Shown piece after piece: positions 29,538-44,387 of a DNA stretch of 51,179 bases. Within the stretch, counting starts at the first letter, position 1; every line of letters begins with the position of its first letter. The notes beneath the pieces are model-generated. The model saw nothing but the letters and a program-made list of their open reading frames with translations, had not been told where the DNA came from and did not search any database. Source of the DNA: Prevotella sp. Its GTDB lineage: Bacteria > Bacteroidota > Bacteroidia > Bacteroidales > Bacteroidaceae. The DNA is taken from NCBI GenBank assembly GCA_017524385.1, contig JAFWSS010000131.1, positions 1-51,179 on the forward strand, written 5' to 3'. The position numbers and the translations under genes are program-made.

Positions 29538-31021
29538 GCTTTGGATTTCTTTGTTTTTTTTGAAGACATAGTATCCTTAAATGTATGAATGACCACCTTG
29601 GAATATGAGAATGCTTCTGGCTTGAAAAAATGGGACCATCCCGAATACAAGATTATATAAAGAATTATTTTGACCACCGCATCTGCATACATAGTCAGAT
29701 GAAGCATCTCCACGCAAACGAAAGTGATGACTGCTATGATAATCGTAGCTATCGTCACGGGGAGAAGGTCTAAAAGTTGTCGATACCATTTGTATCCAAT
29801 ATATTTGGATACCAAACCTATATTGACAAAATAAGCAAGCCAGTGGTTGATCACTACTCCACAAAGCAAGCCCTTCATCCCCCAAATAATAAGGCCTCCA
29901 ATTATAAGCATTAAACTAAATGCTCTCTTGATCACTGTCCAGGTAAAAGTGACCCTGCTTTTCCCTGTGGCAGAAATAGTCTGCATATTAACAGATTGCA
30001 AGCATTGCGCCAATCCTGCTATACACAACATCTGGAAATAGGGTACACTGACCAGCCATTTCTCAGTAAACAGCAAGATGAAAAACGGCTTTGCCACTAA
30101 CAGGAGAATGAACAACGCCGGGAAAGTGAAATATGACAATGTCATTGTAAATCTTTTTACCATATTCTGCAAGGTGGCTTTGTCATCCTGCATCTTGGCA
30201 TACAAGGGATAAGAAGCCCTGACAATCACTTTGGAAATACTTCTTGAAGCCAAGCTCTCTGCGCCATCAGCCTTGGTATAAAAACCCAATATTTCAGGAC
30301 TATATATCTTACCTACTAACAGGGTCTGGATATAAGAGGACATATTGGTAAACAAATGAGTCAACATCATATACATACCAAAACCAAACAATTCCCTGAG
30401 AGATTTCCAAGAAAAGACCAATATGGGTCGCCATTTGACATAAAACCAAAGAAAAAGTGACCTCAATCCTCTCGAAACCAGGTTTCTCACCACCAATGCC
30501 CAAACGCCAAAGCCCATATATGCCAAGACGATACAAATCACAAGGGCTGTAATGGAAGATATAACACTGATAATCGCAAGGATTTTGAAGTTTAATTTCT
30601 TTTTCAGCTGATTGGTTTGAATCAGATTGAATGCATACAAGAACAAAATCAATGCCTGTACCCTGAGGACATCAGACAATTCTGATATTTCGTAAAATCT
30701 CGCTATTGCCGGTGCGCATGCAAACAAAAGCATGTAAAGCACTACTGACAATGACAGGTTGAAGTAGAAGATGGTGGAATAATCCACCTGAGTGGCATTT
30801 TTCTTTTGTATTAATGCCGAACCAAAACCCGAATCGATAAAAGTTTCAGACAACCCCACGAACATTGCCAACATCCCAATACAGCCAAAATCGTAAGGGG
30901 TGAGCAACCTTGCCAGGATGACCTCGGAAATGAATTTGATAATCCTGCTTGAATAGGTTGAGACAGCCGTCCATTTCATCACACTGGCTGCCTTGTACCT
31001 TATGCCTTGCTCTTTTGCCAT
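29534..31021 (-). CDS. wzx: Wzx-type flippase (MOP superfamily)
   Basis: The 495-residue membrane protein has about 12-14 predicted helices and belongs to the polysaccharide transporter group related to WzxC. It starts VMKWTAVSTYSSRIIKFISEVILARLLTPYDFG, the typical family opening, and retains GSALIQKK near residue 70. It should flip the undecaprenyl-linked repeat unit across the inner membrane, ahead of Wzy polymerisation. It lies 4 bp after the PIG-L deacetylase gene and overlaps the NoeA-like gene by 4 bp. Confidence 0.92.
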   Translation of the reverse strand: MAKEQGIRYKAASVMKWTAVSTYSSRIIKFISEVILARLLTPYDFGCIGMLAMFVGLSETFIDSGFGSALIQKKNATQVDYSTIFYFNLSLSVVLYMLLFACAPAIARFYEISELSDVLRVQALILFLYAFNLIQTNQLKKKLNFKILAIISVISSITALVICIVLAYMGFGVWALVVRNLVSRGLRSLFLWFYVKWRPILVFSWKSLRELFGFGMYMMLTHLFTNMSSYIQTLLVGKIYSPEILGFYTKADGAESLASRSISKVIVRASYPLYAKMQDDKATLQNMVKRFTMTLSYFTFPALFILLLVAKPFFILLFTEKWLVSVPYFQMLCIAGLAQCLQSVNMQTISATGKSRVTFTWTVIKRAFSLMLIIGGLIIWGMKGLLCGVVINHWLAYFVNIGLVSKYIGYKWYRQLLDLLPVTIATIIIAVITFVCVEMLHLTMYADAVVKIILYIILYSGWSHFFKPEAFSYSKVVIHTFKDTMSSKKTKKSKA

Positions 31022-31025
31022 CTAA

Positions 31026-31700
31026 CTATCTTCTCTCAAACAACAACTGGAAGGCTTCGGCATACATCACGCCGGCTCTGCTGCCACGCAGGCGAGCCAG
31101 TGCCTTGATGGAACTCAAGCTGCGTGGATAAGGCTCCTCCATCACCTCCTTGGCATACAAGGCCATGATTTCCATTTTTCGCTCCATAAATTCAGTGATG
31201 TCCACATACACATTGGGGATGAAAGTGCGAGCCGGAGTAGCCAGGGCAAATTCAGTCTCAGAGAGTGTCTCCATCATATAGATGCGCTCAATGAAAGGAT
31301 AGCGGAAGGACTTGGTGCAACTGTACACTGCATCGAAGGCGACTCGATGGTCGGAGTGCACGTCATTGGCAAACATCATGTAAATGACATTTGGCTTGAT
31401 GCGTTTGATGACTTCCGACACGCGCTTGATAATATCCCTCAAGTCAAGGGTATGGAGCAATTGTGTGGGCAACGCAAGATATTCCAAAGAGTCATAGCCA
31501 TAAGCATCTGCTACTCGCTGCACACGCTTGCTCCTTTCATCAATATGCTGTTGGGTGAAATGATTAGGATGTTCAAGGGTCGGACCGGTCAGCAACAGCC
31601 AATTGATTACATCACCCTGAGCCTTATGCTTGAGAATTGTTCCGCCACATCCCAATGTCTCATCATCAGCATGGACAGCTATACATAAAACATTATTCAT
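31026..31700 (-). CDS. PIG-L/LmbE family deacetylase
   Basis: The 224-residue protein is a zinc-dependent N-deacetylase. The metal ligands are visible as HADDETLGCGG (10-20) and HSDHR (about 117-121). Members remove acetyl groups from N-acetyl sugars or related amides (MshB, PIG-L, bacillithiol enzymes). In this locus it may free an amine on a sugar so that another acyl group can be attached, which would fit the nearby acyltransferase and ligase genes. There is no signal peptide, so cytosolic action is expected. Confidence 0.88.
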   Translation of the reverse strand: MNNVLCIAVHADDETLGCGGTILKHKAQGDVINWLLLTGPTLEHPNHFTQQHIDERSKRVQRVADAYGYDSLEYLALPTQLLHTLDLRDIIKRVSEVIKRIKPNVIYMMFANDVHSDHRVAFDAVYSCTKSFRYPFIERIYMMETLSETEFALATPARTFIPNVYVDITEFMERKMEIMALYAKEVMEEPYPRSLSSIKALARLRGSRAGVMYAEAFQLLFERR

Positions 31701-31712
31701 TAATCAAATAAA

Positions 31713-32768
31713 TTAAATTTCACGATATCCCAGCAACATCTTGCGATGAACGTCATAACTTTCAGGATGTTTATCCATCCATTGACGGACGATCTCGTCA
31801 TATATCGTCGCATTGTGTATTTTCTTTCCAATATGGAAATCTGAGAGTGACTTGGAAAAATTCATTTTATATTTTAGAAGAGAATTGTCTGGATTGGAAT
31901 TAGACCCACCTCCAAAATGTACAAAACGGCATCCATGAGCTTTCGCAGATTTTATCATAGACCAATACATCAGCGTATTCACCCCAGTCTTGTTGTATTC
32001 CGTGAGTGAAGCTCGAAGATAATTGCTGTAATAATCTTTTGATACCAATCCCGAATAACAGGCGATAGGAATATCGTCTTGATAGGCAATGAAAAATTCA
32101 ATATCATTCATCTGGAACATTCGTCGGAAATGTTCCTTGCTAAAAAAAAGGTAAGGAATGGAATGTACATGCTCCATATTCGCACGATAAATACTGTTGA
32201 AAATATCCACGTTGTCTTCAGTGTATTGAACGGGGCGTATGTCAATCGACTTCGATGCCTTACGTACATGCTGCCTTGTTGACTTGTCAAATCCTTTAAA
32301 AATCTCCTCTTCTGTCTGTGCCAAGTCCATGTAAACGGTATGTCGGTCGAAAATGACATCAAAATGCCCCCTTCCCAACTCTTTATTCTTGAGGATGGGA
32401 TGAAATCGTGTAAATTCCGCCACTATATGGTTTTCATCACAATAACGATCAAAAGCATCCCAAGTCTTATCAATGAAAGCCTTGTCGTTCGAGTTTACAA
32501 TCATACCATTGTAACCATATGCTCCTTGTATGTCGTAATATTCGTCATCCAACTGATATCCTAATAGATTGACGGAATTTTTCATAAAAGGATATATTGC
32601 GACACTACCTTCCTCTTCAAACACAAAGCAGCAAGCCTTGCCATCCCCATTCTTTTCATACAGTGAATAGTATTCAGGGGTGAAATAGACATCCTGCTGG
32701 GAGCTTGGCAGCCTGTCAAGGTATTTTTGCCATTTGAGTTGGTCCTTTGTTGTCAATACTTCTGTCAT
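31713..32768 (-). CDS. FemAB/GNAT-fold acyl- or aminoacyltransferase
   Basis: The 351-residue protein is a double-GNAT FemAB-like protein (Acetyltransf_6 type). Recognisable parts are the FDKSTRQHVRKASK block at about 160-173 and the second GNAT half with FFIAYQDDIPIACYSGLVSKDYYSNYLRAS and FVHFGGGS. Family members transfer amino acids or acyl groups to amines. It lies 12 bp before the PIG-L gene, so an amine unmasked by that enzyme is a candidate acceptor. Substrates are not determined. Confidence 0.78.
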   Translation of the reverse strand: MTEVLTTKDQLKWQKYLDRLPSSQQDVYFTPEYYSLYEKNGDGKACCFVFEEEGSVAIYPFMKNSVNLLGYQLDDEYYDIQGAYGYNGMIVNSNDKAFIDKTWDAFDRYCDENHIVAEFTRFHPILKNKELGRGHFDVIFDRHTVYMDLAQTEEEIFKGFDKSTRQHVRKASKSIDIRPVQYTEDNVDIFNSIYRANMEHVHSIPYLFFSKEHFRRMFQMNDIEFFIAYQDDIPIACYSGLVSKDYYSNYLRASLTEYNKTGVNTLMYWSMIKSAKAHGCRFVHFGGGSNSNPDNSLLKYKMNFSKSLSDFHIGKKIHNATIYDEIVRQWMDKHPESYDVHRKMLLGYREI

Positions 32769-32790: not shown

Positions 32791-33636
32791 TTATAGGTTC
32801 ACGCTTGCCCGTCGTGGTTCGAAGCAGCAGCATGGCCTTAAAGCCACGATGCGCACACCACTGGCACGTTGAGGTCCCACCTTGGCAAAAGTGGCAAGCA
32901 CGCTGGTCTTGCCACCAAGTCCCAAGGCACCGACGTTGGAAGCATTGACCCTTTGGGTGATGGTTTGTTCAAAATCGCTTTGACGGTCGTAATCACCATA
33001 AGCCATGGCCTCCATCATCAAGGCTGTAGCCTCAAACTGTGAGCGGCCGATGCCTATGGCCAAAGTGCAAGGCGAACAACCCAGTTGGCTGACCGCCGGT
33101 ATGGCACGATTGACGATTTCATCCACCACGGCATTTACGCTATGGCGATGGAAGACCCGCTGCGTGACACCCCTGATGGCAGGTCCTCCACCCAGCATCA
33201 TCACCGTCAACCTCAGCACATCGTCCTCCACCGGCTTGATGATGAAAGGCGAAGGCGCCAGTGCTCCCGGGTCGGCATCAAGTCCGCCAGACTGGTCGAT
33301 GCGCTCCATGTCATCACCCTTGATGGCCATGGGGCGGCCAGGCAGCTTGCGCAACCCTTCCCTGACCCCCTCTTGGATTTGGAAGAGCAACTCCCCCGTC
33401 ACTTGGCGGTTTTTGCCCACTTCCAAGAAAAGATGCGGGATGCCGGTGTCGTCACAAAGCGGGCTGTGGCGTTCCTCCGCCACCAATGCATTGTCAAGCA
33501 CCTGGCGCATAACCCAGCAACTGCTCGTTCCCGGGTCGCTCTCCATAGCTTTGCGATATGCCTCTTTTTGGTCTTCGCGAAACGTGGACCCCGCCTCGAC
33601 CAGGCACTGAGCCACTTTTTCAACTATACTACTCAT
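32791..33636 (-). CDS. Fumarase class I alpha-subunit homologue
   Basis: This protein of about 281 residues corresponds to the [4Fe-4S] N-terminal half of class I fumarase or the alpha subunit of tartrate dehydratase. Three cysteine contexts expected for the cluster are present: PLCDDTGIP, GCSPCTLAIG and the C-terminal PCCCFEP. I prefer the ATG at 33636, which overlaps the beta gene by only 8 bp and has an AAGGAAAAAG stretch before it; an ATG at 33684 would overlap by 56 bp. Members hydrate or dehydrate C4 acids such as fumarate, mesaconate and tartrate. It sits downstream of the beta gene inside a glycan locus, so a dedicated biosynthetic role is more likely than central metabolism. Confidence 0.82.
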   Translation of the reverse strand: MSSIVEKVAQCLVEAGSTFREDQKEAYRKAMESDPGTSSCWVMRQVLDNALVAEERHSPLCDDTGIPHLFLEVGKNRQVTGELLFQIQEGVREGLRKLPGRPMAIKGDDMERIDQSGGLDADPGALAPSPFIIKPVEDDVLRLTVMMLGGGPAIRGVTQRVFHRHSVNAVVDEIVNRAIPAVSQLGCSPCTLAIGIGRSQFEATALMMEAMAYGDYDRQSDFEQTITQRVNASNVGALGLGGKTSVLATFAKVGPQRASGVRIVALRPCCCFEPRRASVNL

Positions 33637-34135
33637 AGATGCTTTTTCCTTTTGCTGCAGCAATGATGGCTTGGTAATGCTCAACCCTTATACGATACAA
33701 TGCTTCCATTCCCAATTCGGGAAACGCCACGCATTCACGCTCAAAAGTATGGCTCTCCAACAAGGCTGTCACAGGTGGAATGATGGCGAATACAGCGATT
33801 TGCTCCTCCAGCATCCTCACCGTCTCGGCCTTGATGGCCCCTTTTCCCAAATGCATCCTCACCCCGGCTTTTGAAAGCGTCTCAAAAGAGCTTTCTATCT
33901 CCAATTTGTTACTTGAGGTCGGTCCCACCCCGGCAGGGCTTACTGCGGTATGGAAGATGACGCCACCTTGCAAGTCAATGCCGCGTTGCTCCCAAGTGCC
34001 TTCCTCTATTTCCTTGCAGATGCGGGGCAGCACGGCATCACGACCGCAAAAGATGTAGCCGCTGATGTCGACCACGTCACCTACTTGCAGCTGCGCGATG
34101 GCTTCCTCACTGAACGGTGTCGTTAATTTGAACAT
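33629..34135 (-). CDS. Fumarase class I beta-subunit homologue
   Basis: The 168-residue protein matches the C-terminal swivelling domain of class I fumarases (TtdB type). It has VVDISGYIFCGRDA near residue 21, FHTAVSPAGVGPTSSNKLE at about 76-94, and HLGKGAIK. The usual GGAAAL segment is replaced by PPVTALLES, so the substrate may differ from fumarate. The beta gene precedes the alpha gene and overlaps it. It lies 6 bp after the ThDP-dependent decarboxylase gene. Confidence 0.82.
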   Translation of the reverse strand: MFKLTTPFSEEAIAQLQVGDVVDISGYIFCGRDAVLPRICKEIEEGTWEQRGIDLQGGVIFHTAVSPAGVGPTSSNKLEIESSFETLSKAGVRMHLGKGAIKAETVRMLEEQIAVFAIIPPVTALLESHTFERECVAFPELGMEALYRIRVEHYQAIIAAAKGKSIYE

Positions 34136-34141
34136 CTTATA

Positions 34142-35275
34142 TCATTTGGATGTATTGAAGAATCGAACAAGAGCGTCCTTCTGTTCCTTATGCTTGATTT
34201 GGAGTTTGGGCATGTCGCTTCGTATGCCTTGGCGCACATGCACATCCACAAACGACATCTTGCCATGGAGGCAGGCTTCTTTGACAAACTGCTGCAACTC
34301 ATCCTTCCTTTCAATCCACGAAGGCGGAACCTCATAATTACAAGCCCTTGCCACAGCAGTCAAATCAACCACCTGGCCTGCAGATTTTTGCCCGCCAACG
34401 GATTCGTTCACCCCATTGTTGAGGACGATATGGAGAAGGTTTCCCGGGCGATAGCGGCCGTTTGTAGCCAAAGCACCCATATGCATCACGGCAGAAGCAT
34501 CCCCGTCGAAAACAACGATGTTTTTCCCAGGTGCGCCCAAGGCCATGCCCAAGCCAATGGAAGACACATGGCCCATCGCACCGACGTTCAGGAATTCACA
34601 ATCTCGGCCATACCCGTGGATGGCCAATTGCTCGTGCAACTCCCTTGTGGCCCTTCCTGTGGTGGCAAGGTAAACCACACTGTCACCCAAGACATCGATG
34701 ACAGCCGAAATGGCCTCCTCGCGATTCATCAAGTTGCTTTCCGGGTATTCCTGATGTTTTTCCTTTTGGGTGAGAATGCCTTTCTTTGCAATCAAAGCCA
34801 CAGGAGAGGAGAGTTCCTTTGCCTTGTCATATGCCCATTTGAACTTTTCCACAACAGTAAGGTCATCATCCAACACCTTGCATGGTATATCCATGTCTTC
34901 CATCAAGACAGGGGTCAGTTCGCCTTGCTTCTTATGCTGTGCATGGTCTTTCACTTCCGGGTCGCCCCTCCATCCTATCACCAGAATCATCGGTATGGAA
35001 TATACAGTGTCATGAACCAATGAGAGCAAAGGATTCGTTGCATTCCCTATGCCTGAATTCTGCATATACACTAATGGGATGTTGCCAGTAGCCATATAGT
35101 TTCCTGCAGCGATGGCAATCGCATTTCCCTCGTTGGCAGCCATCACATGCAGACCATCGGGAACATGATTTGAAAGATATAAACAAAAATCATTCAATAA
35201 CGAATCAGGAACACCAGTGAAAAACCGTATTCCTATTTTCATTAAATCTTGATACAGATTCTTTTGCGATATCAT
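34142..35275 (-). CDS. aepY: Phosphonopyruvate decarboxylase-like ThDP enzyme
   Basis: The 377-residue protein closely follows the AepY/Ppd pattern: FFTGVPDSLLNDFC (18-31), the ThDP-activating Glu49 in NEGNAIA, GWRGDPEVKDHAQH (101-114), and the ThDP/Mg motif GDA at 258-260 with NN at 286-287. AepY decarboxylates 3-phosphonopyruvate to phosphonoacetaldehyde, and sulfopyruvate decarboxylases are close relatives. No PEP mutase (AepX) or 2-aminoethylphosphonate transaminase is recognisable in the window. The true substrate could therefore be phosphonopyruvate made elsewhere, or another 3-substituted pyruvate. Its start overlaps the stop of the MmgE/PrpD gene (TAATG). Confidence 0.85.
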   Translation of the reverse strand: MISQKNLYQDLMKIGIRFFTGVPDSLLNDFCLYLSNHVPDGLHVMAANEGNAIAIAAGNYMATGNIPLVYMQNSGIGNATNPLLSLVHDTVYSIPMILVIGWRGDPEVKDHAQHKKQGELTPVLMEDMDIPCKVLDDDLTVVEKFKWAYDKAKELSSPVALIAKKGILTQKEKHQEYPESNLMNREEAISAVIDVLGDSVVYLATTGRATRELHEQLAIHGYGRDCEFLNVGAMGHVSSIGLGMALGAPGKNIVVFDGDASAVMHMGALATNGRYRPGNLLHIVLNNGVNESVGGQKSAGQVVDLTAVARACNYEVPPSWIERKDELQQFVKEACLHGKMSFVDVHVRQGIRSDMPKLQIKHKEQKDALVRFFNTSK

Positions 35276-36615
35276 TAAACGAATTTCTTGAAATCAACAA
35301 CATCTTCTGTCATTATCATTTCATACAAGAATGTTGATTTATCATTATCAAATCCCGCATGTGATGTCATTGAAATAAACTTTTCCTTTAATTCATCCTC
35401 AGACATAGGATTTTCAGGTTCTCCCTTTGGATAATCCACCCTATGCTCAAAAACATGGCCATCAATCATTTCAATTTTGAGAATAGCAACACGTTTGTCG
35501 GGGACAAGCTTTGTCAATTCTTCATTTCCTTCAATTACGCACAAGTCAATGAGATGAAGAATCTGAGGATTCTTGACATACTTGTTGGAAAAAACTTCAA
35601 CATCAGCTTTTCCTGTATACAAAGCAGCTGCAATACAATAAGGTATGCTCATTCTTGCCGAATTTTCCTCATAGATGTCTTTGCCATCGTGCTTACCAAT
35701 CACCCCCTTGTAAGTTGTGACATTTATGGCTTTTATTTTATCGACGCTGAATTCCTTATTTTTACGAATGGCCAGAGCTGCTTCAATTTCAGGATGAGTA
35801 TGCCGACAAGAAGCATAGGGTTTTAGATAGATGTTACCAATTTCAAAGCCTCTCCCCTTTTCAAATAGTTTTATTTCATCAAAGCTTTTACACATCATAC
35901 TGAAAAAGCCTGTATCACCAGAGAGGACATCATTTGGACCACCATAACCAGCTTTTGCCATCATACAAGCGTAATAGCCCAACAATGCAGCTCTTCCACA
36001 ATTATATGGCTTGAGCTGTGATACATCTTCTATTACTTTTAAAGTTCCATAAGCAGAGACGGCAGCCGCAGAAAAAGCATCTTTCATCTCTCTTTTATCA
36101 TAATCAAGCATTACCGCCAAACCTACGGCCACACCGATAGTGCAACAAGTCGCGGTCGGATGAAAGCCAGCTGAATAATGAGAGGGCTGCATTGCTTTTG
36201 CCAACCGAATGGAAGTTTCATATCCACATATTGCACCTAAGACAAATCGCTTCCATGGAACATCTTTTACAATTGCCACAGGGATCAACGCTGAGAATAA
36301 TGGAGCACTCGGATGTATTACACCGTATCTAATTCCATCATCAAGTTCAAGATAATGAGCGTTTAATCCATTTACAAGAATGGCACAAGCTAATGAAGTT
36401 TCTTCATCCATTCCGATGGGTTTGATGCATCTCGCTCCATCATCCATTAGATGTATAAGCAATTGGTTCTTCTTACGAAGTTCTACAGAACCCGCAATCA
36501 TCACACTAATCGTATCTGCAAGGCAAATTCGCAACATTTTGTGTGTTGAGGAAGGGATTTCTTCGTAATTAATCGAAGAGATATAATCTAAGAATCTATC
36601 TGTATAGTTTACCAT
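35275..36615 (-). CDS. MmgE/PrpD family protein
   Basis: The 446-residue all-helical plus alpha/beta protein resembles 2-methylcitrate dehydratase and its relatives. It has LNAHYLELDDGIRYGVIHPSA near the usual substrate region (about residues 83-103), GYETSIRLAKA, and FHPTATCCTIGVAVGLA (about 151-167), all hallmarks of the family. Known members include PrpD, cis-aconitate decarboxylase and iminodisuccinate epimerase, so dehydration, decarboxylation or epimerisation are all possible. It sits in the nine-gene metabolic block and is visibly more AT-rich than the flanking aldo/keto reductase gene. Confidence 0.85.
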   Translation of the reverse strand: MVNYTDRFLDYISSINYEEIPSSTHKMLRICLADTISVMIAGSVELRKKNQLLIHLMDDGARCIKPIGMDEETSLACAILVNGLNAHYLELDDGIRYGVIHPSAPLFSALIPVAIVKDVPWKRFVLGAICGYETSIRLAKAMQPSHYSAGFHPTATCCTIGVAVGLAVMLDYDKREMKDAFSAAAVSAYGTLKVIEDVSQLKPYNCGRAALLGYYACMMAKAGYGGPNDVLSGDTGFFSMMCKSFDEIKLFEKGRGFEIGNIYLKPYASCRHTHPEIEAALAIRKNKEFSVDKIKAINVTTYKGVIGKHDGKDIYEENSARMSIPYCIAAALYTGKADVEVFSNKYVKNPQILHLIDLCVIEGNEELTKLVPDKRVAILKIEMIDGHVFEHRVDYPKGEPENPMSEDELKEKFISMTSHAGFDNDKSTFLYEMIMTEDVVDFKKFV

Positions 36616-36621
36616 AATGGC

Positions 36622-37566
36622 TTATATGAATTTGAAATACTGTGGACTATCCGGTTTTGCCAATTCCCATGCTTCATCCATGGCCTCACGGATGGTTTGC
36701 GGTAGGTCGCCCTTCTCCACAGCTGCCATGTTTTGCGCCATCTGCTCTTGACGAGACGCCCCAAGCAGTATGCCGTCGCCCTTGGATTCATCCATCAACG
36801 AATGGCAACACAACCAGCGATAAGCCGCCTCCGCCATGGGAATGCCTTCTGCTTCACAAGCTTTCCTTATTTCTTCCACGGCATCAAAATACGACTGTTT
36901 CCAATATCTTTTACGATAACTTTCCAATCTTTCGAAACGGCCTGGCTGTGGCTTGTCGTCATAGTTCTTATGCTTTCCTGTGAGCATGCCTCCAGCCAAA
37001 GGATTGAAGGCGTAGAAACGCATACCTAACGACCGTATGGCAGGAAACAACTCCGGCTCCACATTGCGGCAAAGCGAATTATACATCCCTTGGTAAACCG
37101 AAGGACGCGGACACCCGGCCTTGTCACATTTCCAGGCTATGTCGACAACCTGCCATGCTGGATAATTGCTCAAACCCAGTTCTTTGACGACACCTTTTTC
37201 ATACAGCTCTGCCACGGTCTCCAAAGCCTCTTCAATGGGTGTCTTTGCATCAGGAAAATGGAAATACAACAAGTTGACACTGTCTCTCTTCATACGTTTC
37301 AGCGACTCGTTGAGTTCCATCAAGATGGTCTCACGGTCAAGACGCCCCGTGATGCGAGGATGCACTTTCGTAGCTATCTCATAGCTGTTGCTGTCAATGC
37401 CCGGCAGGATGTCACCCAATATGTTTTCCGTGGCGCCACCATTGTAAACGTATGCAGTGTCCAATTCCCGATTACCGGAATCAAGGAAGGCATTCACCAT
37501 GTTGCGGCTTCCCTCCAAGTCAAGCTGGGGGCCGAAATTCATGGTTCCCAATACGATTTTCATCAT
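36622..37566 (-). CDS. Aldo/keto reductase (AKR7-like)
   Basis: The 314-residue NADPH-dependent TIM-barrel reductase has the catalytic set Asp and Tyr in ELDTAYVYNGG (about 34-44), Lys in ATKVHPR, and His in LLYFHFPDA. The pattern YHFHxPD with FNPLAGGMLTGKH resembles the AKR7 aflatoxin-aldehyde reductases, which reduce dialdehydes and succinic semialdehyde. In the block it could reduce an aldehyde such as the product of the neighbouring decarboxylase, which is inference. It lies 2 bp after the C-C bond lyase gene. Confidence 0.88.
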   Translation of the reverse strand: MMKIVLGTMNFGPQLDLEGSRNMVNAFLDSGNRELDTAYVYNGGATENILGDILPGIDSNSYEIATKVHPRITGRLDRETILMELNESLKRMKRDSVNLLYFHFPDAKTPIEEALETVAELYEKGVVKELGLSNYPAWQVVDIAWKCDKAGCPRPSVYQGMYNSLCRNVEPELFPAIRSLGMRFYAFNPLAGGMLTGKHKNYDDKPQPGRFERLESYRKRYWKQSYFDAVEEIRKACEAEGIPMAEAAYRWLCCHSLMDESKGDGILLGASRQEQMAQNMAAVEKGDLPQTIREAMDEAWELAKPDSPQYFKFI

Positions 37567-37567
37567 A

Positions 37568-38713
37568 TTATTCCCTTTCCCCCAAGACCAGGTTCAAAAC
37601 GGAATCCTCATTCTTGATGACACCGTAGACTTTTGCCCGTGCAACGATTTTTTCCGCCCATCGATGATGCGGGCCTATCTCGTTCATCTTTCCTCCACCT
37701 TCGCTCTTGATCACCCCGCCGGAGGTGTTGAGAATCTGAATGGCATCGTTGTACTCTTCCTCCACGACGGTGAACATGGCATTGACGAACTTGGCGTGAG
37801 TGGGGTGTATGATGGTTTTCCCAATGAATCCATTGGCGCGGTCGAGCATCACTTCCTTGAGAAGTCCGTCGATGGCAGGGTTGACAATGTCCTCCCCCTT
37901 GACCAGGGCATTATGGAAATTGCGTTTGATGACTTCATCGATGTCGTCATCCTTGTATGCTCGGAAATACTCCCATACGGCAGCCGAAACACTGTAGTCG
38001 CAGTATCGGTTGAAGAAATTCAAGATGTCAGACAAGGCGTCACGCACAGGCATGATGTCATACACAGTCGAATTGATTCCCCTACGCACGCCGAAGAGAG
38101 ACGACATGTCAGTACCACCCACACGGATGTTGAGTATGAGGTCCTTATAAGGCTCCAAGATGTTGCGGAGCAGCAACAACTCTTGATTACGAGATTCCCT
38201 GAAAGCACATTCCGCACCTTCGAGGATAGGCATGCCATAAAGGATTACCCCAAGCCTCTTGTTGACTTCCACCAATGTTTTCAACACGCCCAGTGCTGTG
38301 CGGCTGTTGAATTTGGGGAAATTGAATCCTGTAAGCACAGAGGCTTGCTTGGCGGTGAGCCGTGCGGCAAAGCTCTTGAATTGCTCCGGGTTTCGCACAC
38401 GAACGAAAATCAACGGAAGGTCGTCAAGACTCATCCTGCCCTCAGCTATCTGGTCGGCGAAGAAATCCATGTGGTCAAGGATGTTTTGTTCTGCCAATGG
38501 CAAGTCCTCTTCCTTGATGGCATCCTCACAGCACATGACAAAAGAAGTGACATCCAATTGGCGGTTGACAATCTTCTCCTTGATATCCTTCGTGCCAGGC
38601 ATGTACAGCGTTGCTCCAAGACAATACTGCAACAGCTCCCGCTCCGTGAACTTGTTGAAATTCTCAGGTTCCCTTACAAATTGAAAATGTTGGTTATAGG
38701 AATGATGTCTCAT
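37568..38713 (-). CDS. CitE/HpcH-like C-C bond lyase (PF15617 type)
   Basis: The 381-residue TIM-barrel protein follows the C-C_Bond_Lyase family. It has GATLYMPGT (33-41), a CCEDAI segment (61-66) where CitE-type lyases have LEDAV with the metal-binding acid, LPLIFVRVR, GFNFPKF, ILNIRVGGTDMSSLFGVRR, GFIGKTIIHP and PHHRWAEKI. Relatives cleave or form C-C bonds of (acyl)-malate type compounds. This family is best known from the biosynthetic module linked to tellurite-resistance (Ter) operons, where it also occurs with ATP-grasp genes. Here an ATP-grasp gene lies two genes upstream, but no Ter protein is present. Confidence 0.8.
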   Translation of the reverse strand: MRHHSYNQHFQFVREPENFNKFTERELLQYCLGATLYMPGTKDIKEKIVNRQLDVTSFVMCCEDAIKEEDLPLAEQNILDHMDFFADQIAEGRMSLDDLPLIFVRVRNPEQFKSFAARLTAKQASVLTGFNFPKFNSRTALGVLKTLVEVNKRLGVILYGMPILEGAECAFRESRNQELLLLRNILEPYKDLILNIRVGGTDMSSLFGVRRGINSTVYDIMPVRDALSDILNFFNRYCDYSVSAAVWEYFRAYKDDDIDEVIKRNFHNALVKGEDIVNPAIDGLLKEVMLDRANGFIGKTIIHPTHAKFVNAMFTVVEEEYNDAIQILNTSGGVIKSEGGGKMNEIGPHHRWAEKIVARAKVYGVIKNEDSVLNLVLGERE

Positions 38714-38725
38714 ATGCTGTCAATT

Positions 38726-39607
38726 TCATTTAGGCGAGACCACAGCCTCGGGATAGTAAGTGTCGATCACCCTTTTGACCAAAGCCACCTGCTTGGCACG
38801 CTTCTTGGCATCCGCCTCAGTGGTGTCCCAACTGTGTGTGGCAGCCACCGAACCGCCAGTCTTCAGATAGATGGGTGCTGCCACCCTGATAAACTCCGGC
38901 ACCTCATAGTGACGGATGAAGCCTCCTGTTGACTTTGGATTCTCCGTATGGATGTCGATGGGAATGTCTATCGCCGCACGTATGGCAGCCAACATCTGCA
39001 ATTGGATGTCACGAACGGGATTGAACGAATTGGCTCCATTCTCCTGCATGAGTCTTGCCGAACAAGGGTTGCCATGACCGGTATGAGCAGAGATTTTGAA
39101 TTTGGACTCCCTGGGGATGAAACCATCTGCCCTCATCTTGTTGAGCAGCCAAAGCAAACCCTCGTCGTAGACCATGAACGACCTTACGCCAAGTCTTGCA
39201 GCACGCCGGATGTCTTCGACAGCACGAATCACTTGCTCCTGACCTCTGAGCCTGTAACCCATACGCACTCCTTCAGGGGTGTTCACCGAAGCGGAAGTGT
39301 CGGTGGTTGCCCTGGGACCTGTGGCCAGTAGCAGTTCCACCTTCCATTTCTCGGCATATTCGAGCATTTGCTCTATTTCACTATCGAGCAAGAACATGAT
39401 GCCTTTTGTCTGGGTAACCCGGTGGATGCCAATGCCGTAGTTGTCTAATTGTTCGAGCAATGCCTTCATGGCGGCAGGACCTTGGATGCCAGGCACCTCG
39501 AAACGGTATTGACCACCATCATCAAAACGTTTCTCCGAGGTGGGCAAGCCATACAGGTCGCCAGAGGGCAGCCCTAATTGAGAAAGGTAATTCCTTATAT
39601 CATTCAT
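38726..39607 (-). CDS. Unrecognised TIM-barrel-like enzyme
   Basis: The 293-residue protein is not one I can name. It looks like a (beta/alpha)8 barrel: repeated hydrophobic strands end in polar residues, as in VELLLATGPRATTDT (about 90-104), RSFMVYDEGLLWLL, KISAHTGHGNPC, IPIDIHTENPKSTGG and PIYLKTGGSVA. The His-x-Gly-His-Gly and His-Thr-Glu-Asn segments and the late Lys are plausible active-site residues. There is a distant resemblance to the barrel of U32-type peptidases, but I would not assign that function. It lies 12 bp after the ATP-grasp gene and 12 bp before the C-C bond lyase gene, so it probably acts in the same pathway. Confidence 0.6.
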   Translation of the reverse strand: MNDIRNYLSQLGLPSGDLYGLPTSEKRFDDGGQYRFEVPGIQGPAAMKALLEQLDNYGIGIHRVTQTKGIMFLLDSEIEQMLEYAEKWKVELLLATGPRATTDTSASVNTPEGVRMGYRLRGQEQVIRAVEDIRRAARLGVRSFMVYDEGLLWLLNKMRADGFIPRESKFKISAHTGHGNPCSARLMQENGANSFNPVRDIQLQMLAAIRAAIDIPIDIHTENPKSTGGFIRHYEVPEFIRVAAPIYLKTGGSVAATHSWDTTEADAKKRAKQVALVKRVIDTYYPEAVVSPK

Positions 39608-39618
39608 TGGATATATTG

Positions 39619-40890
39619 CTAATAATTGATAAAACTCTCATCTATGGTGTTCAACACCAAGTCCTCACCATCTTGGTTGAAAACCTTAAAATTGCCATAA
39701 ATAAACTGAAGAATGTCCATCATCTGAGACTTATCTTTCACCACCATGTGAAGACCTGCAATTTTCTGGGCTGTTGTTCCATCTTTCCCAATAAGGTCAC
39801 CTTCTTTTTTATTCAACGAGCAGCTGATGACTTCTGGAAGTTTGGATACGATTTCCCATCCTTCAATCCTTGCAATCTTGTCTTCCTTTCCAAGGATGTT
39901 CCATTGAAAACATAGATTTTCAAAATCAGGATTGTCACGCTCAGATATTTGATAGTCAGCCATTTTTCCTGTCAGTGCGAAATGAATCAATTGCTTGACA
40001 GAACTGCTATTATTTTCATAATCAGTAAAGATGAAATGGCATCCCCCACTAAGGCGATATCCCATCTCATAAAAATAGAATTCATCGCCATTGGTAAAAC
40101 TTTGTATGAACAAGACTCCATTGGTGACACCCAAATTCTTATACATGGCACGCACTTTTCCATCCATTTTCTTCAAATATGGGTTGATGTATTTGGAAGG
40201 ATATATGCCACCATTTGTTACAGCACCCGCACCCTCTTTCTTATGGACAATTCTGTCGTTGATGGTAGACATAGAAATATTCCCATCTTGTATAGTATAA
40301 GAAACCGAAACAGTATCCATATCCATATACTTTTCTATGACAACCTTTTTTTTCTGGGAAAAAGACAATGCATATTCAAGGTTATCTTTAAATTCATTGG
40401 GTGATTCACAAGTTATGATACCTCGAGACCCACTATTGTCCACGGGTTTAATCAAAATCTTGTTTTCTGGAGAAATGACCTGAGGATTGAAAGTTGCTAA
40501 ATCAAATTCAGGTACCACCGGGACGTCATTTTCTTTACAAAGTCTTTTAAAATAAGATTTGTCCAGGGTCTTTTCAAAAACCTCCTTGGTTGCATAGCAA
40601 GGAAGCCCTGCAAGTTCACAAACCTTCTGGTATTGCAATAAATACGAATCAGTAAATCCGGTTATCACCCCATCGATATGGCGCTCCTTAATAAGCCTTG
40701 CCAAGATTTCTGGTTTGAAAATCTCTTCATTCCAATATTCATCAGCAACAAGTTTCGCAGGCGAGCGCTTTGTGTCATACCAATCCGTAACGATGGTATA
40801 AACTCCCATGGCCTTTGCCGCATTTACGATGTAGATGGAAGTGGCCCCACCCCCGAGAATCAACAATCTCTTTCCTTTTAAATCTGCCAT
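39619..40890 (-). CDS. ATP-grasp ligase
   Basis: The 423-residue protein is built like carbamoyl-phosphate synthase/biotin carboxylase-type ATP-grasp ligases. It has an N-terminal preATP-grasp domain with LLILGGGATSIYIVNAAK (9-26), the ATP-binding lysine and loop IKPVDNSGSRGI (147-158), and metal ligands in YFYEMGYRLSGG (about 274-285). Such enzymes activate a carboxylate as acyl phosphate and join it to an amine or thiol. In this locus it is a leading candidate for coupling the acid made by the neighbouring enzymes to an amine. The acceptor is unknown. Base composition is AT-rich relative to the TIM-barrel gene next to it. Confidence 0.85.
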   Translation of the reverse strand: MADLKGKRLLILGGGATSIYIVNAAKAMGVYTIVTDWYDTKRSPAKLVADEYWNEEIFKPEILARLIKERHIDGVITGFTDSYLLQYQKVCELAGLPCYATKEVFEKTLDKSYFKRLCKENDVPVVPEFDLATFNPQVISPENKILIKPVDNSGSRGIITCESPNEFKDNLEYALSFSQKKKVVIEKYMDMDTVSVSYTIQDGNISMSTINDRIVHKKEGAGAVTNGGIYPSKYINPYLKKMDGKVRAMYKNLGVTNGVLFIQSFTNGDEFYFYEMGYRLSGGCHFIFTDYENNSSSVKQLIHFALTGKMADYQISERDNPDFENLCFQWNILGKEDKIARIEGWEIVSKLPEVISCSLNKKEGDLIGKDGTTAQKIAGLHMVVKDKSQMMDILQFIYGNFKVFNQDGEDLVLNTIDESFINY

Positions 40891-40899
40891 ATCTGCTTT

Positions 40900-41910
40900 T
40901 TAAGATAACATACTTAAGATTTCATACATTTCCTTCTGCCCATACCTCTGATCCACAATGAGAGAGAGTTCTTCTGAAGCCATCTGCTTTCCTTTTTCTA
41001 CACTCATTCCATCCAATGGCCAATGAATCGGGCAAAATATATTATGTTCGAACATTCTTCGGCGCACAATATCACGATTTTTCAATACAATGGGTAGAAA
41101 CAAAGGAACCTTGTCTTCCTTAAGGGGCAACAATGGTTGTATTCCTAATTCACCCAAATGCTCTGCAAGAATGCGGGCATTATCCAGCCTGTGCTTTCTC
41201 ACACTTTCAAAATCCATATTTGAATATAAACCTATCGCCACTTTGTTCATACCCATTTCCAAATCCTCGTTAATCAACTCTGAACCAAGTTTGGAAATAT
41301 CCAAATAAACATCATCATTCAAAAATCCGTTCCTCATGGATTTCAACAACGCAGCAGCAAGCTTATATTGCCCGAACTTGTTAGGTTGCTTTGCAAGAGG
41401 AAGCTTGTATTTAGTCTTCACCAGCCCTCCTTCAGGAACGGCGAACACCTTCCGAAGGCTCGTGAATTTGAAATCGACCCCATCCAAATCTTTTATGAAC
41501 TCATAATAGGCTTGAACATCATCCTCCAATATGATGGCATCACAGTCAATACTTCGAATGAATTGAATGGAGGGTGAAAGGTCTTGAAGACCAAAATAAT
41601 TAATAATGAGGACAGCAGAAGAAGAATCGTAGAGTTGTGAAAAACTTCCTCCATCCAAAAGTAGATGCTCGTCTATTGAGTAAAACTCATAATGGAACTC
41701 GAGCTTTTTGACGGGTTCCAAGATGGAACAGCACAGATAGTCTGGGAGGAGGAGGCGTGAAATCTTCAACTCCTCCTTCAGGAATTTCAATATATGAAAA
41801 AGGGCGGCTCGACCGGAGGCATACCTATATACACCCTCTTCCTCTACCAAACTGGTATTCTCCGCTTTTAGAATATCAAAAGCCGAAATATGAAACTCTC
41901 CACCTATCAT
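40900..41910 (-). CDS. Divergent DegT/DnrJ-type PLP aminotransferase-like protein
   Basis: The 336-residue protein has the fold landmarks of sugar aminotransferases but in altered form. It has ASGRAALFHIL (31-41) near the cofactor phosphate site, ILEDDVQAYYE (127-137) in place of VEDAAES, and Lys154 in SLRKVFAVPEGGLVKT in place of the usual SFNxxKxxxxGEGG. It is about 40 residues shorter than LegC-type enzymes. It could aminate a nucleotide sugar or a small keto acid or aldehyde from the adjacent block. Activity is not assured, because the PLP site differs. Confidence 0.7.
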   Translation of the reverse strand: MIGGEFHISAFDILKAENTSLVEEEGVYRYASGRAALFHILKFLKEELKISRLLLPDYLCCSILEPVKKLEFHYEFYSIDEHLLLDGGSFSQLYDSSSAVLIINYFGLQDLSPSIQFIRSIDCDAIILEDDVQAYYEFIKDLDGVDFKFTSLRKVFAVPEGGLVKTKYKLPLAKQPNKFGQYKLAAALLKSMRNGFLNDDVYLDISKLGSELINEDLEMGMNKVAIGLYSNMDFESVRKHRLDNARILAEHLGELGIQPLLPLKEDKVPLFLPIVLKNRDIVRRRMFEHNIFCPIHWPLDGMSVEKGKQMASEELSLIVDQRYGQKEMYEILSMLS

Positions 41911-41930: not shown

Positions 41931-43079
41931 CTACCCCACCCTTACGCTCGAAGGAATGTTCACCACGCGGTCGGCAAACCAGGTGGTGATTTCAAGTCCG
42001 TCGTTCTCACAATGCTCAAACATGGGAAGGCGGTTCATCAGCTCCCAGATGGGGCGTGTCATGATGCCGTGGTCGTTGGTGTATTGCAGAAAAGCCTGTT
42101 GCGCTTCCTTGTCCTTGAGGATGACGGCATTGAGCCAGTAGTTGCTTCTGGAGTCACTTGGCTCGGTGAAGAAATCCACGCCATCGACATCCTTGAAGAA
42201 TTCCTCGTATGCCTTGGCCGTCTCACGCTTGCTGGCCACATATTCCTCGATGTGCTCCAACTGAGCGCATCCCAATGCGGCATTGATGTTGGGCATCCTG
42301 TAGTTGTAGCCGATATGGTCGTGTCGGAACTCCCACCGATGTGGAATCTTCGCCTGTGTGGTGATGTGCTTGGCCAACGCGCCCAACTCCTCGTCGTCAA
42401 AGAGCATCATGCCACCGCCACCGGTGGTGATGGTCTTGTTGCCGTTGAAGCTCAAGGCTCCCACCTTGCCAAAGGTACCGGTATGCCTGCCTTTGTAGAG
42501 GCTGCCAATGCTTTCCGCAGCATCCTCCACCAATTCTATGTGGTATTCTTCAAGCACCTCCACCAGTTCATCCAAATGAACGGGATGCCCGAAGGTATGC
42601 ATGGGAACACAGGCTTTCACCCTTCTACCAGTCCTCTTGTTAAAACACTGCCCTTCTTTCATTTCCGAGTTCTTTGACAGCCACTCACGGACAGCCTTGG
42701 GAGAAAGTCCCATCGTATCCTTGTCAACGTCGATGAACACAGGATGGGCACCAATGTAGCTAAGGGCATTGCATGTGGCGATGAATGTCAATGCTTGTGT
42801 CAAGACTTCGTCATCACGCTCCACACCAGCCAACATGAGCGACATGTGCAAGGCGTTCGTTCCACTTACACACACCACGGCACGACGGCAACCCGTATAA
42901 GCTGCCATGTCATTCTCGAAACGGTCGACGAATTTCCCCACACTTGATACGAACGTGGTGTCGATGCATTCCTCCAGGTATTTCTTTTCGTTGCCTATGA
43001 AAACGGGCACAGACAGAGGGATGAAATCGCCTCCGCCATAAAGGTCACGTATGAAATCTATCGTTTTCTTCAACTCCAT
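41931..43079 (-). CDS. LegC-like nucleotide-sugar aminotransferase
   Basis: The 382-residue DegT/DnrJ/EryC1 aminotransferase converts a 4-keto-6-deoxy sugar nucleotide to the 4-amino sugar using PLP and glutamate. Motifs: VSGTNALHMSL (71-81), LVEDAAESIGS (183-193), and the PLP lysine in SFNGNKTITTGGGGMM (Lys215). The opening DFIPLSVPVFIGNEKKYLEECI is typical of the LegC group. It follows the dehydratase gene by 99 bp, so the two form the standard dehydratase plus aminotransferase pair. Confidence 0.88.
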   Translation of the reverse strand: MELKKTIDFIRDLYGGGDFIPLSVPVFIGNEKKYLEECIDTTFVSSVGKFVDRFENDMAAYTGCRRAVVCVSGTNALHMSLMLAGVERDDEVLTQALTFIATCNALSYIGAHPVFIDVDKDTMGLSPKAVREWLSKNSEMKEGQCFNKRTGRRVKACVPMHTFGHPVHLDELVEVLEEYHIELVEDAAESIGSLYKGRHTGTFGKVGALSFNGNKTITTGGGGMMLFDDEELGALAKHITTQAKIPHRWEFRHDHIGYNYRMPNINAALGCAQLEHIEEYVASKRETAKAYEEFFKDVDGVDFFTEPSDSRSNYWLNAVILKDKEAQQAFLQYTNDHGIMTRPIWELMNRLPMFEHCENDGLEITTWFADRVVNIPSSVRVG

Positions 43080-43178: not shown

Positions 43179-44387
43179 TCACATCTTTTGGTCAAGGTTC
43201 TTGCCTTTCTCCTCATGCTCGAAATTGGGGATGAACCGCTTGATGGCCTCCACCACTTGTTGCTTGGTGAAGTCCTCTTGTGCGAAGATGCCTTCCAATT
43301 CAGAGAAGAAGGTGTCGACTTCCTCCAAGGAGCAACGCTTGGTCTGCTCCACCACTCCCAATGCACGGAACCGTTCCATATTGATTTTCTCGCCTGGCAC
43401 ATAAAACTCCTCATAGGGTTTCTCGCCTGTGGTGTCGCTCTTGAAATAGACCACGGGGTAGTCGTCAGAACCATATGACATCGTGGCAGCGTAATGACGG
43501 GCCTCATCATCGGTGACACATTCCTTCTTGGCAAAGCCTTCCGCCTTGACGAAATCGTCACAAATCTGTGAGAAGGTGAGCATCTGCGTCTCCTCCAGTT
43601 TGGGGAAGAACACCTCCCCTCCGTTTCCGAGGATGCACGCAAGCATGCAAATCTGTCCGGACTCTTCCGGTGAGACGAAATAGCGTCTGACATCCGTAGG
43701 TGCCGCCAGCGGTTGTTTCTTTTGCAAGCGATGCAGCCAACCGTCGGGTAGCGACCCATTGCTGAAGGCTACATTGGCAAAACGAGCGGTAGTGACTTTG
43801 AACACCTTATTATATGCCATCACCAAATCCTCCATGATGCGCTTGCTCGCCCCCATGATGTTCACCGGGTTGGCGGCCTTGTCGGTGGAGACGCAGAAGA
43901 AATGCTTCGGGGGATATGTGCAGAGCAGGTCCATCAGTTTCTTTGCCTTGATGTCATTGTTCTCAATAAGCGCCTGCACGCTATACCTGTCCTTCTCCGA
44001 CCGCACATGCTTGTGTGCGGAGAAGTTGGCCACGATGTCGAACCCTTTCTCCTCGCGGAAGATGCGCTCGAAAATGGGGTCGGCGAAATTCAAGGTGTAG
44101 CACCTGAACTCATCGGGGCAGAAAAGCCCATCGGTGGACCTGACGTCACGCACGAGTTCCGCCAATCCGTTCTCGTTGAGGTCCACGACCACCACGCTCT
44201 TTGGTTCAAACCGCAACACGGCCTTGATGAACGATGACCCAATGGAGCCGGCGCCGCCAATGACACACACCGTCTTGTTGTGGATTTCTCTTGTCAGTAC
44301 CTCCTTGTTGGCTTCTATGTCTTTTGCGAACATGCTGACTGGACGGAAGGTCACACTGTCAGCGATGAATTGGTCTAAATTGAACAT
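43179..44387 (-). CDS. NDP-HexNAc 4,6-dehydratase (LegB/CapD-like)
   Basis: The 402-residue extended SDR protein of the polysaccharide biosynthesis (PF02719) family shows CVIGGAGSIGSSFIKAVL (about 36-53), VVVVDLNENGL, FSAHKHV, and STDKAANPVNIMGASKR. In the last of these the usual Tyr of Y-x3-K is Met, as in many HexNAc 4,6-dehydratases. It should convert UDP- or GDP-GlcNAc to the 4-keto-6-deoxy sugar used by the LegC-like enzyme. Its start codon lies inside a 10-bp inverted repeat that encloses four 11-bp repeats (44381-44456), a possible control point for translation. Confidence 0.85.
   Translation of the reverse strand: MFNLDQFIADSVTFRPVSMFAKDIEANKEVLTREIHNKTVCVIGGAGSIGSSFIKAVLRFEPKSVVVVDLNENGLAELVRDVRSTDGLFCPDEFRCYTLNFADPIFERIFREEKGFDIVANFSAHKHVRSEKDRYSVQALIENNDIKAKKLMDLLCTYPPKHFFCVSTDKAANPVNIMGASKRIMEDLVMAYNKVFKVTTARFANVAFSNGSLPDGWLHRLQKKQPLAAPTDVRRYFVSPEESGQICMLACILGNGGEVFFPKLEETQMLTFSQICDDFVKAEGFAKKECVTDDEARHYAATMSYGSDDYPVVYFKSDTTGEKPYEEFYVPGEKINMERFRALGVVEQTKRCSLEEVDTFFSELEGIFAQEDFTKQQVVEAIKRFIPNFEHEEKGKNLDQKM

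Follow-up and report, generated by a model that had tools for sequence, protein, structure and literature searches.

The question considered here is what is made by nine consecutive minus-strand genes (32791..41910) that lie in a capsule-type locus of a Prevotella sp. (GenBank assembly GCA_017524385.1, contig JAFWSS010000131.1), the whole stretch of 51,179 nucleotides, a complete contig (G000:C137), being referred to as the window. The genes encode a DegT-like protein, an ATP-grasp ligase, a TIM-barrel protein (TIM), a CitE-fold C-C bond lyase or synthase (CCL), an aldo/keto reductase (AKR), an MmgE/PrpD-family protein (MmgE), an AepY-like thiamine diphosphate (ThDP) decarboxylase and two divergent fumarase-like subunits (FumB' and FumA'). 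A preliminary description, made from the sequence alone, had read the block as a pathway for an unusual carboxylic acid or phosphonate carried by an amine of the glycan, and its account of nine closely packed open reading frames (ORFs) agrees with the coordinates, from which overlaps or intergenic gaps of at most 12 bases were computed. On balance we favour the reading that the genes form a mobile, modular cassette making a citrate- or malate-like hydroxy acid, which would be attached to an amine of a surface glycan, probably through an amide bond. This reading is carried by the recurrence of a core of five enzymes, by the exchange of a finishing module, by the co-inheritance of two core enzymes with that module and by the occurrence of the cassette in glycan loci.

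A core that recurs across phyla

An alignment of the TIM protein served as marker in a scan of the genome collection, which returned 294 relatives; the best 80 gave 79 loci (identity at least 73%), and it is on these best 79 loci of the 294 relatives that the locus-level counts rest. Two loci, L006 and L007, are duplicates of L014 and L051 and were dropped from the trees and the de-duplicated counts (81 to 79 loci), and two short ones, L087 and L088, were re-read as L109 and L110. The carriers span Bacteroidota, Bacillota, Fibrobacterota and Lentisphaerota, with Prevotellaceae and other Bacteroidales records as the closest cassette relatives of the window's genome. In samples of 301 genomes from the family and 395 from the phylum the cassette was found in 3 each, a number that includes the window's genome in both cases; it is thus rare inside its own group yet widely spread across phyla.

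Among the de-duplicated loci TIM is present in 79, CCL in 75, FumB in 65, MmgE in 62 and FumA in 61, and all five families occur together in 53. The recurrence of TIM in 79 other loci, with the full five-family core in 53, places the association above chance. FumA is missing from 18 of the 79 loci; when the genomes of 12 of these were searched it was found in 10 (one partial, two with an internal stop), and in 11 of the same 12 genomes MmgE is also missing at the locus, a genome search recovering it in 9 of the 11 (one partial). Of the nine-gene combination singled out at the outset, it is therefore the core that recurs, whereas a fixed unit is not borne out, since the finishing module, the ATP-grasp gene and the DegT gene vary.

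Exchange of the finishing module

Loci were typed by the module that accompanies the core: type A, the window's, has AepY and/or AKR, type B a D-2-hydroxyacid dehydrogenase (cluster c6; PF02826, PF00389) and type C an Ldh_2-type dehydrogenase (cluster c29). AepY and AKR occur jointly in 33 of the 81 loci, AKR alone in 1 and AepY alone in 1, while c6 occurs in 34/81 and AepY or AKR together with c6 in 0/81. After de-duplication (n=79) there are 34 loci of type A, 33 of type B, none with both and 12 with neither (Fisher p 1.6e-12, the rows not being independent). With the c29 protein of L060 as BLAST query, matches were obtained in 4 of the 12 untyped loci (L023, L044, L047 and L060) and in L087; more distant matches are those in L032 and L038, both of which have c6. 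Pfam assigns the L032 member to Ldh_2, and the L060 member matches Ldh_2-type models below their cut-offs. A single slot is accordingly filled either by a 2-oxo-acid decarboxylase with a reductase or by either of two kinds of 2-hydroxyacid dehydrogenase. The substrates of all enzymes of the slot being 2-oxo or 2-hydroxy acids, the simplest reading is that the types have a 2-oxo acid in common, which is probably finished in differing ways.

Core enzymes that follow the exchange

The tree of an enzyme acting on the shared compound is expected to be independent of the locus type, whereas that of an enzyme acting on a type-specific compound should follow it. Changes of the A/B label on the trees were compared with 200 shuffles across all phyla and with 300 shuffles within a phylum, untyped loci being left out. 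Over all loci CCL has 1 change against a shuffle mean of 21.3 (63 rows) and MmgE 2 against 19.2 (56 rows), the corresponding values being 15 and 23.0 for TIM (68 rows), 18 and 18.5 for FumA (57) and 17 and 20.0 for FumB (60). Within Bacteroidota the figures are 1 against 13.3 for CCL, 2 against 11.6 for MmgE, 10 against 13.1 for TIM, 8 against 10.7 for FumA and 12 against 11.6 for FumB, and within Bacillota 1 against 4.6, 1 against 6.2, 5 against 7.7, 5 against 6.1 and 5 against 6.8 in the same order. CCL and MmgE have fewer label changes than every shuffle. Judged from these trees, the lyase CCL and MmgE track the type closely, and TIM and the fumarase-like subunits weakly or not. The contrast between TIM and CCL is not explained by linkage, since the two genes are direct neighbours in every one of the 34 type A loci, as they are in 10 of the 30 type B loci holding both.

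Alignment columns that discriminate type A from types B and C together (a different residue at 80% or more in each of the two groups) number 9 in CCL, 4 in MmgE and 0 in both TIM and FumA. Three residues past the invariant Glu165, CCL of type A has Glu168 (0.91), where types B and C have Arg (0.82). The ligase family grasp7 likewise separates by type, with 1 change against 4.8 over 25 rows of which only 5 are type A, and it is mainly this one ligase family, together with the chemistry of the modules, that argues for differing products.

Occurrence in glycan loci and the joining enzyme

Glycan-type genes, called with home-made hidden Markov models built mainly from window proteins, are found in 71 of the 79 de-duplicated loci (73/81 with duplicates), and the expectation that the cassette would track with glycan loci is thereby upheld. 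The count is 69/79 when DegT and ATPgrasp_ST proteins are excluded, and a glycosyltransferase, a PglC-type transferase or Wzx is present in 56/79. The eight loci that have no glycan-type gene by these models are L030, L032, L034, L038, L059, L067, L077 and L080; in L077 and L080 ORFs resembling chain-length and tyrosine-kinase proteins, which are features of exopolysaccharide loci, were recognised by eye.

One of four ATP-grasp families is present in 57/79 loci. The proposal that the ATP-grasp protein is the joining enzyme is favoured by this overall frequency, but its support is weak in the window's own type A, where such a gene is found within the stretch read in 16 of 34 loci, against 29 of 33 in type B. 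A further cluster, c13, stands near the cassette in 21 loci, its representative (L046:15644-16729) being an ATPgrasp_ST protein (PF14397).

Properties of the individual enzymes

The family names given at first to the genes were confirmed by Pfam or NCBIfam for seven of them, the 293-residue TIM having no family over cut-off and the 336-residue DegT-like protein matching no Pfam or NCBIfam family at all. Single-sequence searches of the PDB with TIM, CCL and the DegT-like protein gave no match, and profile searches only weak or chance ones. TIM stays below the U32 peptidase cut-off (16.1 against 22.4 bits), as a distant relative in L127 does below that of BKACE (21 against 24.8); a fold search returned only a generic TIM barrel, and the absence of BKACE among the matches listed excludes nothing. 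CCL is closer in fold to CLYBL and malyl-CoA lyase than to HpaI in a fold comparison, from which the substrate is not readable, and it reaches just 23.9 of the 443.4 bits of the citE model; it has the CitE/CLYBL fold, and its citrate-lyase-type activity is a prediction. The MmgE/PrpD protein has the domains of its family, but falls far under the cut-off of the PrpD equivalog TIGR02330 (29.8 of 458 bits), and its nearest PDB entries are B. subtilis IRG1 (2e-32) and IDS epimerase (2e-24). The ATP-grasp protein matches PDB 4dim (E 5e-14). The DegT-like family aligns to a three-row LegC/DegT profile (hhalign E 2.4e-5, probability 75.5%) with a conserved Lys over the Lys of LegC, and has 15 homologous ORFs in the fetched loci.

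The fumarase-like subunits are distinct from the genome's separate class I fumarase on contig C90. In an alignment with the housekeeping fumarase and E. coli TtdA, FumA' retains their three Cys positions, which are the ligands of the Fe-S cluster, but has CDDTG where the other two have CQDTG. FumB' has GRDAVL in place of ARDIAH/CRDVCH and GPTSSNK in place of GPTTxxRM when compared with the housekeeping fumarase and E. coli TtdB. The equivalog cut-offs are not reached (PRK06246, 109/276 bits; PRK08230, 58/365), and the broad TIGR00722 model is barely exceeded (106.5 against 100.65 bits). The start of the alpha subunit is uncertain: it was called at a TTG (33684), and an internal ATG at 33636 would leave an 8-base overlap with the beta gene.

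Relatives with a catabolic appearance

In the Clostridia locus L032 one strand encodes CitC, a CitE-type lyase (PF03328, with a further match of 37.5 bits to PF15617), CitF, CitX, c6, TIM and MmgE, and further on a second TIM, FumB', FumA', Ldh_2, an AAT-family protein and a metallo-beta-lactamase-fold protein; the strand also has a solute-binding protein of family 5, a protein of the creatininase family and an ABC permease, with more ABC-type ORFs recognised by eye. L038 is near-identical, its cassette genes being the same in kind by BLAST. In these two loci neither a CCL of the window's type nor any of the four ATP-grasp families was detected, and AKR and AepY are also not present. A catabolic operon away from glycan loci, named in the preliminary description as evidence against a glycan role, was found in part, namely in these two Clostridia loci, which have TIM, MmgE and FumA'B' of the cassette in an operon of catabolic appearance. 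That a citrate lyase takes the place of the missing CCL, together with the CitE/CLYBL fold of CCL itself, is the best hint of a citrate-like acid. The AAT-family, metallo-beta-lactamase-fold and creatininase-family proteins of this locus (L032:13373-18428) are candidates for the release of the acid from an amide.

TIM relatives at a greater distance (37-52% identity) have other neighbours: in L127 an Ldh_2-type gene and a fumarate-reductase-type gene, in L129 a fumarase over cut-off, an Ldh_2-type gene and an ORF that by eye resembles malic enzyme, in L130 a malic-enzyme-like ORF and ORFs like FumA/B, and in L128 MmgE and a PrpR_N regulator. These neighbours tie the TIM family to dicarboxylate metabolism. 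When catabolic relatives were sought around genome G722, the family sample comprised only 2 genomes and the class sample gave 7/46.

A proposed pathway

In the pathway that we propose, TIM, aided where present by FumA'B', would convert a precursor of the C4-dicarboxylate type into a 2-oxo acid whose beta carbon bears an acidic group, and this step would be shared by all types. In type A the AepY-like enzyme would decarboxylate the 2-oxo acid and AKR would reduce the product to R-CH2OH, whereas in type B the D-2-hydroxyacid dehydrogenase would reduce the 2-oxo acid to R-CH(OH)-COOH, as the Ldh_2-type dehydrogenase would in type C. CCL and the MmgE/PrpD protein may act on the branch-specific compound and set the final carbon skeleton, and a ligase, here perhaps the ATP-grasp or the FemAB protein, would join the carboxylate to an amine that is probably made by LegC.

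It is furthermore quite possible, and we put it forward tentatively, that the cassette is a horizontally spread 'acid switchboard', in which the conserved core, in glycan loci of several phyla, leads to a common 2-oxo acid of the citrate family, a swap of the module with its matched lyase and MmgE alters the displayed acid by one CO2 or a stereocentre, some bacteria run the enzymes backwards to eat the acid, and TIM represents a new enzyme family of dicarboxylate metabolism. If the proposal is true, surface glycans would have a new class of substituent with an enzyme logic close to citrate metabolism, and TIM would be of interest as an enzyme family to which no function is assigned and which is also found next to genes of dicarboxylate metabolism. 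Many carriers come from rumen or gut samples according to their record titles, where surface glycans govern contacts with phage, host and microbes. The exchange pattern moreover predicts a difference of 43.99 Da (CO2) between the acyl groups of types A and B, provided that the later steps match.

Points against the proposal and alternative explanations

Several observations weigh against an exchangeable cassette that makes a glycan-linked hydroxy acid. A search of the L109 and L110 genomes, both of which have the cassette, returned no FumA homologue; it had no positive control and did not include FumB', and its FumA query had matched 10 of 12 genomes in another search. Since FumA' was not found there, FumA'B' is treated as an accessory, shared step. 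The fold match of TIM is generic and gives no reaction. None of the four ATP-grasp families is present in the stretch read in 18 of the 34 type A loci and in 4 of the 33 of type B, and the type A loci concerned (the Bacteroidota loci L012, L013, L042, L050, L057, L065 and 12 others) must use another ligase or one located elsewhere. Types B and C are not exclusive, since L032 and L038 carry c6 plus an Ldh_2-type protein. A weak link to the label exists for TIM and FumA, since 15 and 22 of 300 shuffles in Bacteroidota and 11 and 58 of 300 in Bacillota reach the observed values or lower ones (for FumB 216/300 and 25/300). When type C is added to the labels, 5 changes each are counted for CCL and MmgE (shuffles 26.2 and 22.2) and 19 for TIM (28.3), and the type A rows L039 and L072 have a dissimilar MmgE on a long branch. 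Finally, the ligase family grasp10 separates weakly (4 against 7.0) and grasp16 unclearly (2 against 3.2), and the aminotransferase AT5 shows no separation by type (4 against 3.8).

These last families, which occur with both types A and B, together with the TIM and FumA'B' proteins that both types have in common, would suit the explanation that types A, B and C are convergent routes to one acid and not to different acids. We regard this as unlikely, since the decarboxylation drops a carbon which the dehydrogenases retain, grasp7 ligases split by type (if with few type A rows), and the Glu/Arg exchange in CCL lies close to an invariant Glu. That the block is an organic-acid catabolic operon which stands in a capsule locus by chance could be argued from the L032 operon with its citrate lyase, amidase-like proteins and ABC transporter, from the Ldh_2-type, fumarate-reductase-type, fumarase or MmgE genes beside the distant TIM relatives, and from the many type A loci with no ATP-grasp nearby. 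Such an explanation is nonetheless quite improbable in view of the frequency of glycan-type and ATP-grasp genes in the loci (71 and 57 of 79), the recurrence of sugar aminotransferases near the cassette, and the position of the window's cassette, with short gaps, between LegC and FemAB/Wzx.

The AepY-like protein exceeds the cut-off of the phosphonopyruvate decarboxylase model TIGR03297, and a phosphonate pathway, in which it would convert phosphonopyruvate to phosphonoacetaldehyde for elaboration by the other enzymes, had been one of the initial suggestions. This suggestion was rejected on a search for phosphoenolpyruvate (PEP) mutase in 22 cassette genomes: the window's genome (completeness 99.9) has no match over cut-off, its best being 20.4 bits against the Pfam cut-off of 31.5, and just 4 of the 22 have one, of which one is 107 residues long, so that full-length enzymes are found in 3/22 only. 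Some match at E <=0.001 exists in 21/22, most of them short and weak. As PEP mutase is not over cut-off in 18 of the 22, the window's genome included, and as AepY is swapped for 2-hydroxyacid dehydrogenases while the remaining cassette stays, a phosphonate product can hardly be expected. A second AepY homologue lies on the opposite strand in L071 (L071:19359-20480), whose genome G709 has full-length PEP mutases; it may be a genuine phosphonate gene in the vicinity of the cassette. Very improbable, too, is a sulfonate version, in which the 2-oxo acid would be sulfopyruvate and the products isethionate- or sulfolactate-type groups. The Ldh_2-type protein of L060 does match best with L-sulfolactate dehydrogenase (289 bits) and AepY also matches sulfopyruvate decarboxylase models, but all these matches are below cut-off (500; 221.5 and 147.95), the CitE-fold CCL, MmgE and citrate lyase would be left without a role, and a type A sulfonate alcohol would offer no carboxylate to a ligase.

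Relation to known systems

The cassette, as the proposed maker of a citrate- or malate-like acid, resembles the methylcitrate cycle and citrate fermentation (PrpD, aconitase-type hydratases, CitCEFX) in the reaction types of its C-C bond lyase, MmgE/PrpD protein and Fe-S hydro-lyase, and the sibling operon L032 indeed has CitC, a CitE-type lyase, CitF and CitX; it differs in that it is found in glycan loci, that CCL belongs to PF15617 and not to CitE, and that MmgE is far under the PrpD equivalog cut-offs. With the decoration of capsules by 2-aminoethylphosphonate, for which the genes are AepX, AepY and AepZ, it shares a ThDP decarboxylase of the AepY family over the TIGR03297 cut-off, but the partners differ, no PEP mutase over cut-off is present in the genome and AepY is replaceable by 2-hydroxyacid dehydrogenases. 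The O-antigen pathways for N-acylated 4-amino-4,6-dideoxy sugars, such as that for the perosamine of V. cholerae O1 which bears 3-deoxy-glycero-tetronate, are alike in that LegB/LegC-type genes adjoin an acid-making set in a glycan locus; to our knowledge their enzyme set looks unrelated to that of the cassette, in which moreover activation may proceed by way of ATP-grasp. The ter operon likewise contains a biosynthetic module with a C-C bond lyase and an ATP-grasp protein, and the lyase family PF15617 is shared with CCL, whereas the window's ATP-grasp protein does not match ATPgrasp_Ter. Among the papers listed in searches of an open-access library, judged by their titles and the opening lines of their abstracts, none describes such a cassette; novelty is not provable from these searches, and the enzyme set is apparently undescribed.

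The window and its flanks

The flanking genes named in the preliminary description (LegC, dehydratase, FemAB, PIG-L, LpxD-like and CapK-like) are as described by Pfam and NCBIfam, the last two under cut-off, the LpxD-like hexapeptide protein with 195 bits slightly below 207 and the CapK/PaaK-like ORF with sub-cut-off NCBIfam matches throughout. Upstream of the cassette LegC and the 4,6-dehydratase are followed by a trio of genes which, from their Pfam matches, we take to be like FnlA/B/C. Downstream are found FemAB, PIG-L, Wzx, glycosyltransferases, the LpxD-like protein, the CBS-nucleotidyltransferase, which presumably resembles PtmE, a weak Wzy candidate and the CapK/PaaK-like ORF. The coordinates are collected in the table.

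Table. Genes of the cassette and selected flanking genes in the window.
Feature	Position	Strand	Family match or basis
FumA', divergent fumarase-like alpha subunit (class I Fe-S hydro-lyase family)	32791..33684	-	PF05681 164.8 bits
FumB', divergent fumarase-like beta subunit	33629..34135	-	PF05683 71.2 bits
AepY-like putative ThDP decarboxylase of 2-oxo acid, finishing module type A	34142..35275	-	TIGR03297 383.7 bits, cut-off 312.5
MmgE/PrpD-family protein, type-matched	35275..36615	-	PF03972, PF19305 (MmgE_PrpD_N/C)
Aldo/keto reductase (AKR), finishing module type A	36622..37566	-	PF00248 Aldo_ket_red 188 bits
CCL, CitE-fold C-C bond lyase/synthase, type-matched	37568..38713	-	PF15617 C-C_Bond_Lyase 352.8 bits
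TIM, TIM-barrel enzyme, 293 aa, cassette marker	38726..39607	-	no family over cut-off
ATP-grasp ligase, may join acid carboxylate to amine	39619..40890	-	ATP-grasp_3 26.9 bits, cut-off 23.2
DegT-like protein of pyridoxal phosphate-dependent fold, 336 aa	40900..41910	-	hhalign to LegC/DegT profile
LegC-family sugar 4-aminotransferase	41931..43079	-	TIGR04181 556 bits, cut-off 420
LegB/PseB-like nucleotide-sugar 4,6-dehydratase (named by resemblance)	43179..44387	-	PF02719 Polysacc_synt_2 122.7 bits; NCBIfam PseB 70/408 bits
FemAB/GNAT-fold transferase, possible acyl or aminoacyl transferase	31713..32768	-	PF13480, PF02388
PIG-L deacetylase	31026..31700	-	PF02585
Wzx-type flippase	29534..31021	-	PF13440 303 bits
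Wzy-like polymerase, weak match	23645..24880	-	PF04932 25.4 bits, cut-off 31.7
CBS + nucleotidyltransferase	24868..25926	-	PF00483, PF00571

Between Wzx and a glycosyltransferase the window has a 441-residue ORF (28212-29537) with no Pfam match, and at the contig end, adjoining the glycan locus, a DDE transposase ORF (49997-51118; PF01609, 42 bits). In the other loci, secreted or lipoprotein-like ORFs of about 430-440 residues belonging to clusters c21 and c22 (L016:8642-9964 and L026:19496-20779) stand near the cassette in 10 and 9 loci, the former representative having no Pfam match and appearing by eye to be Cys/His peptidase-like. L012 furthermore encodes a KASIII-type synthase (L012:6192-7253), and genes of the clusters c20, c28, c34 and c42, one or more of which are also found in L037, L043, L052 and L081, recur near the cassette in several loci; together they point to a further pathway for an acyl group in these glycan loci.

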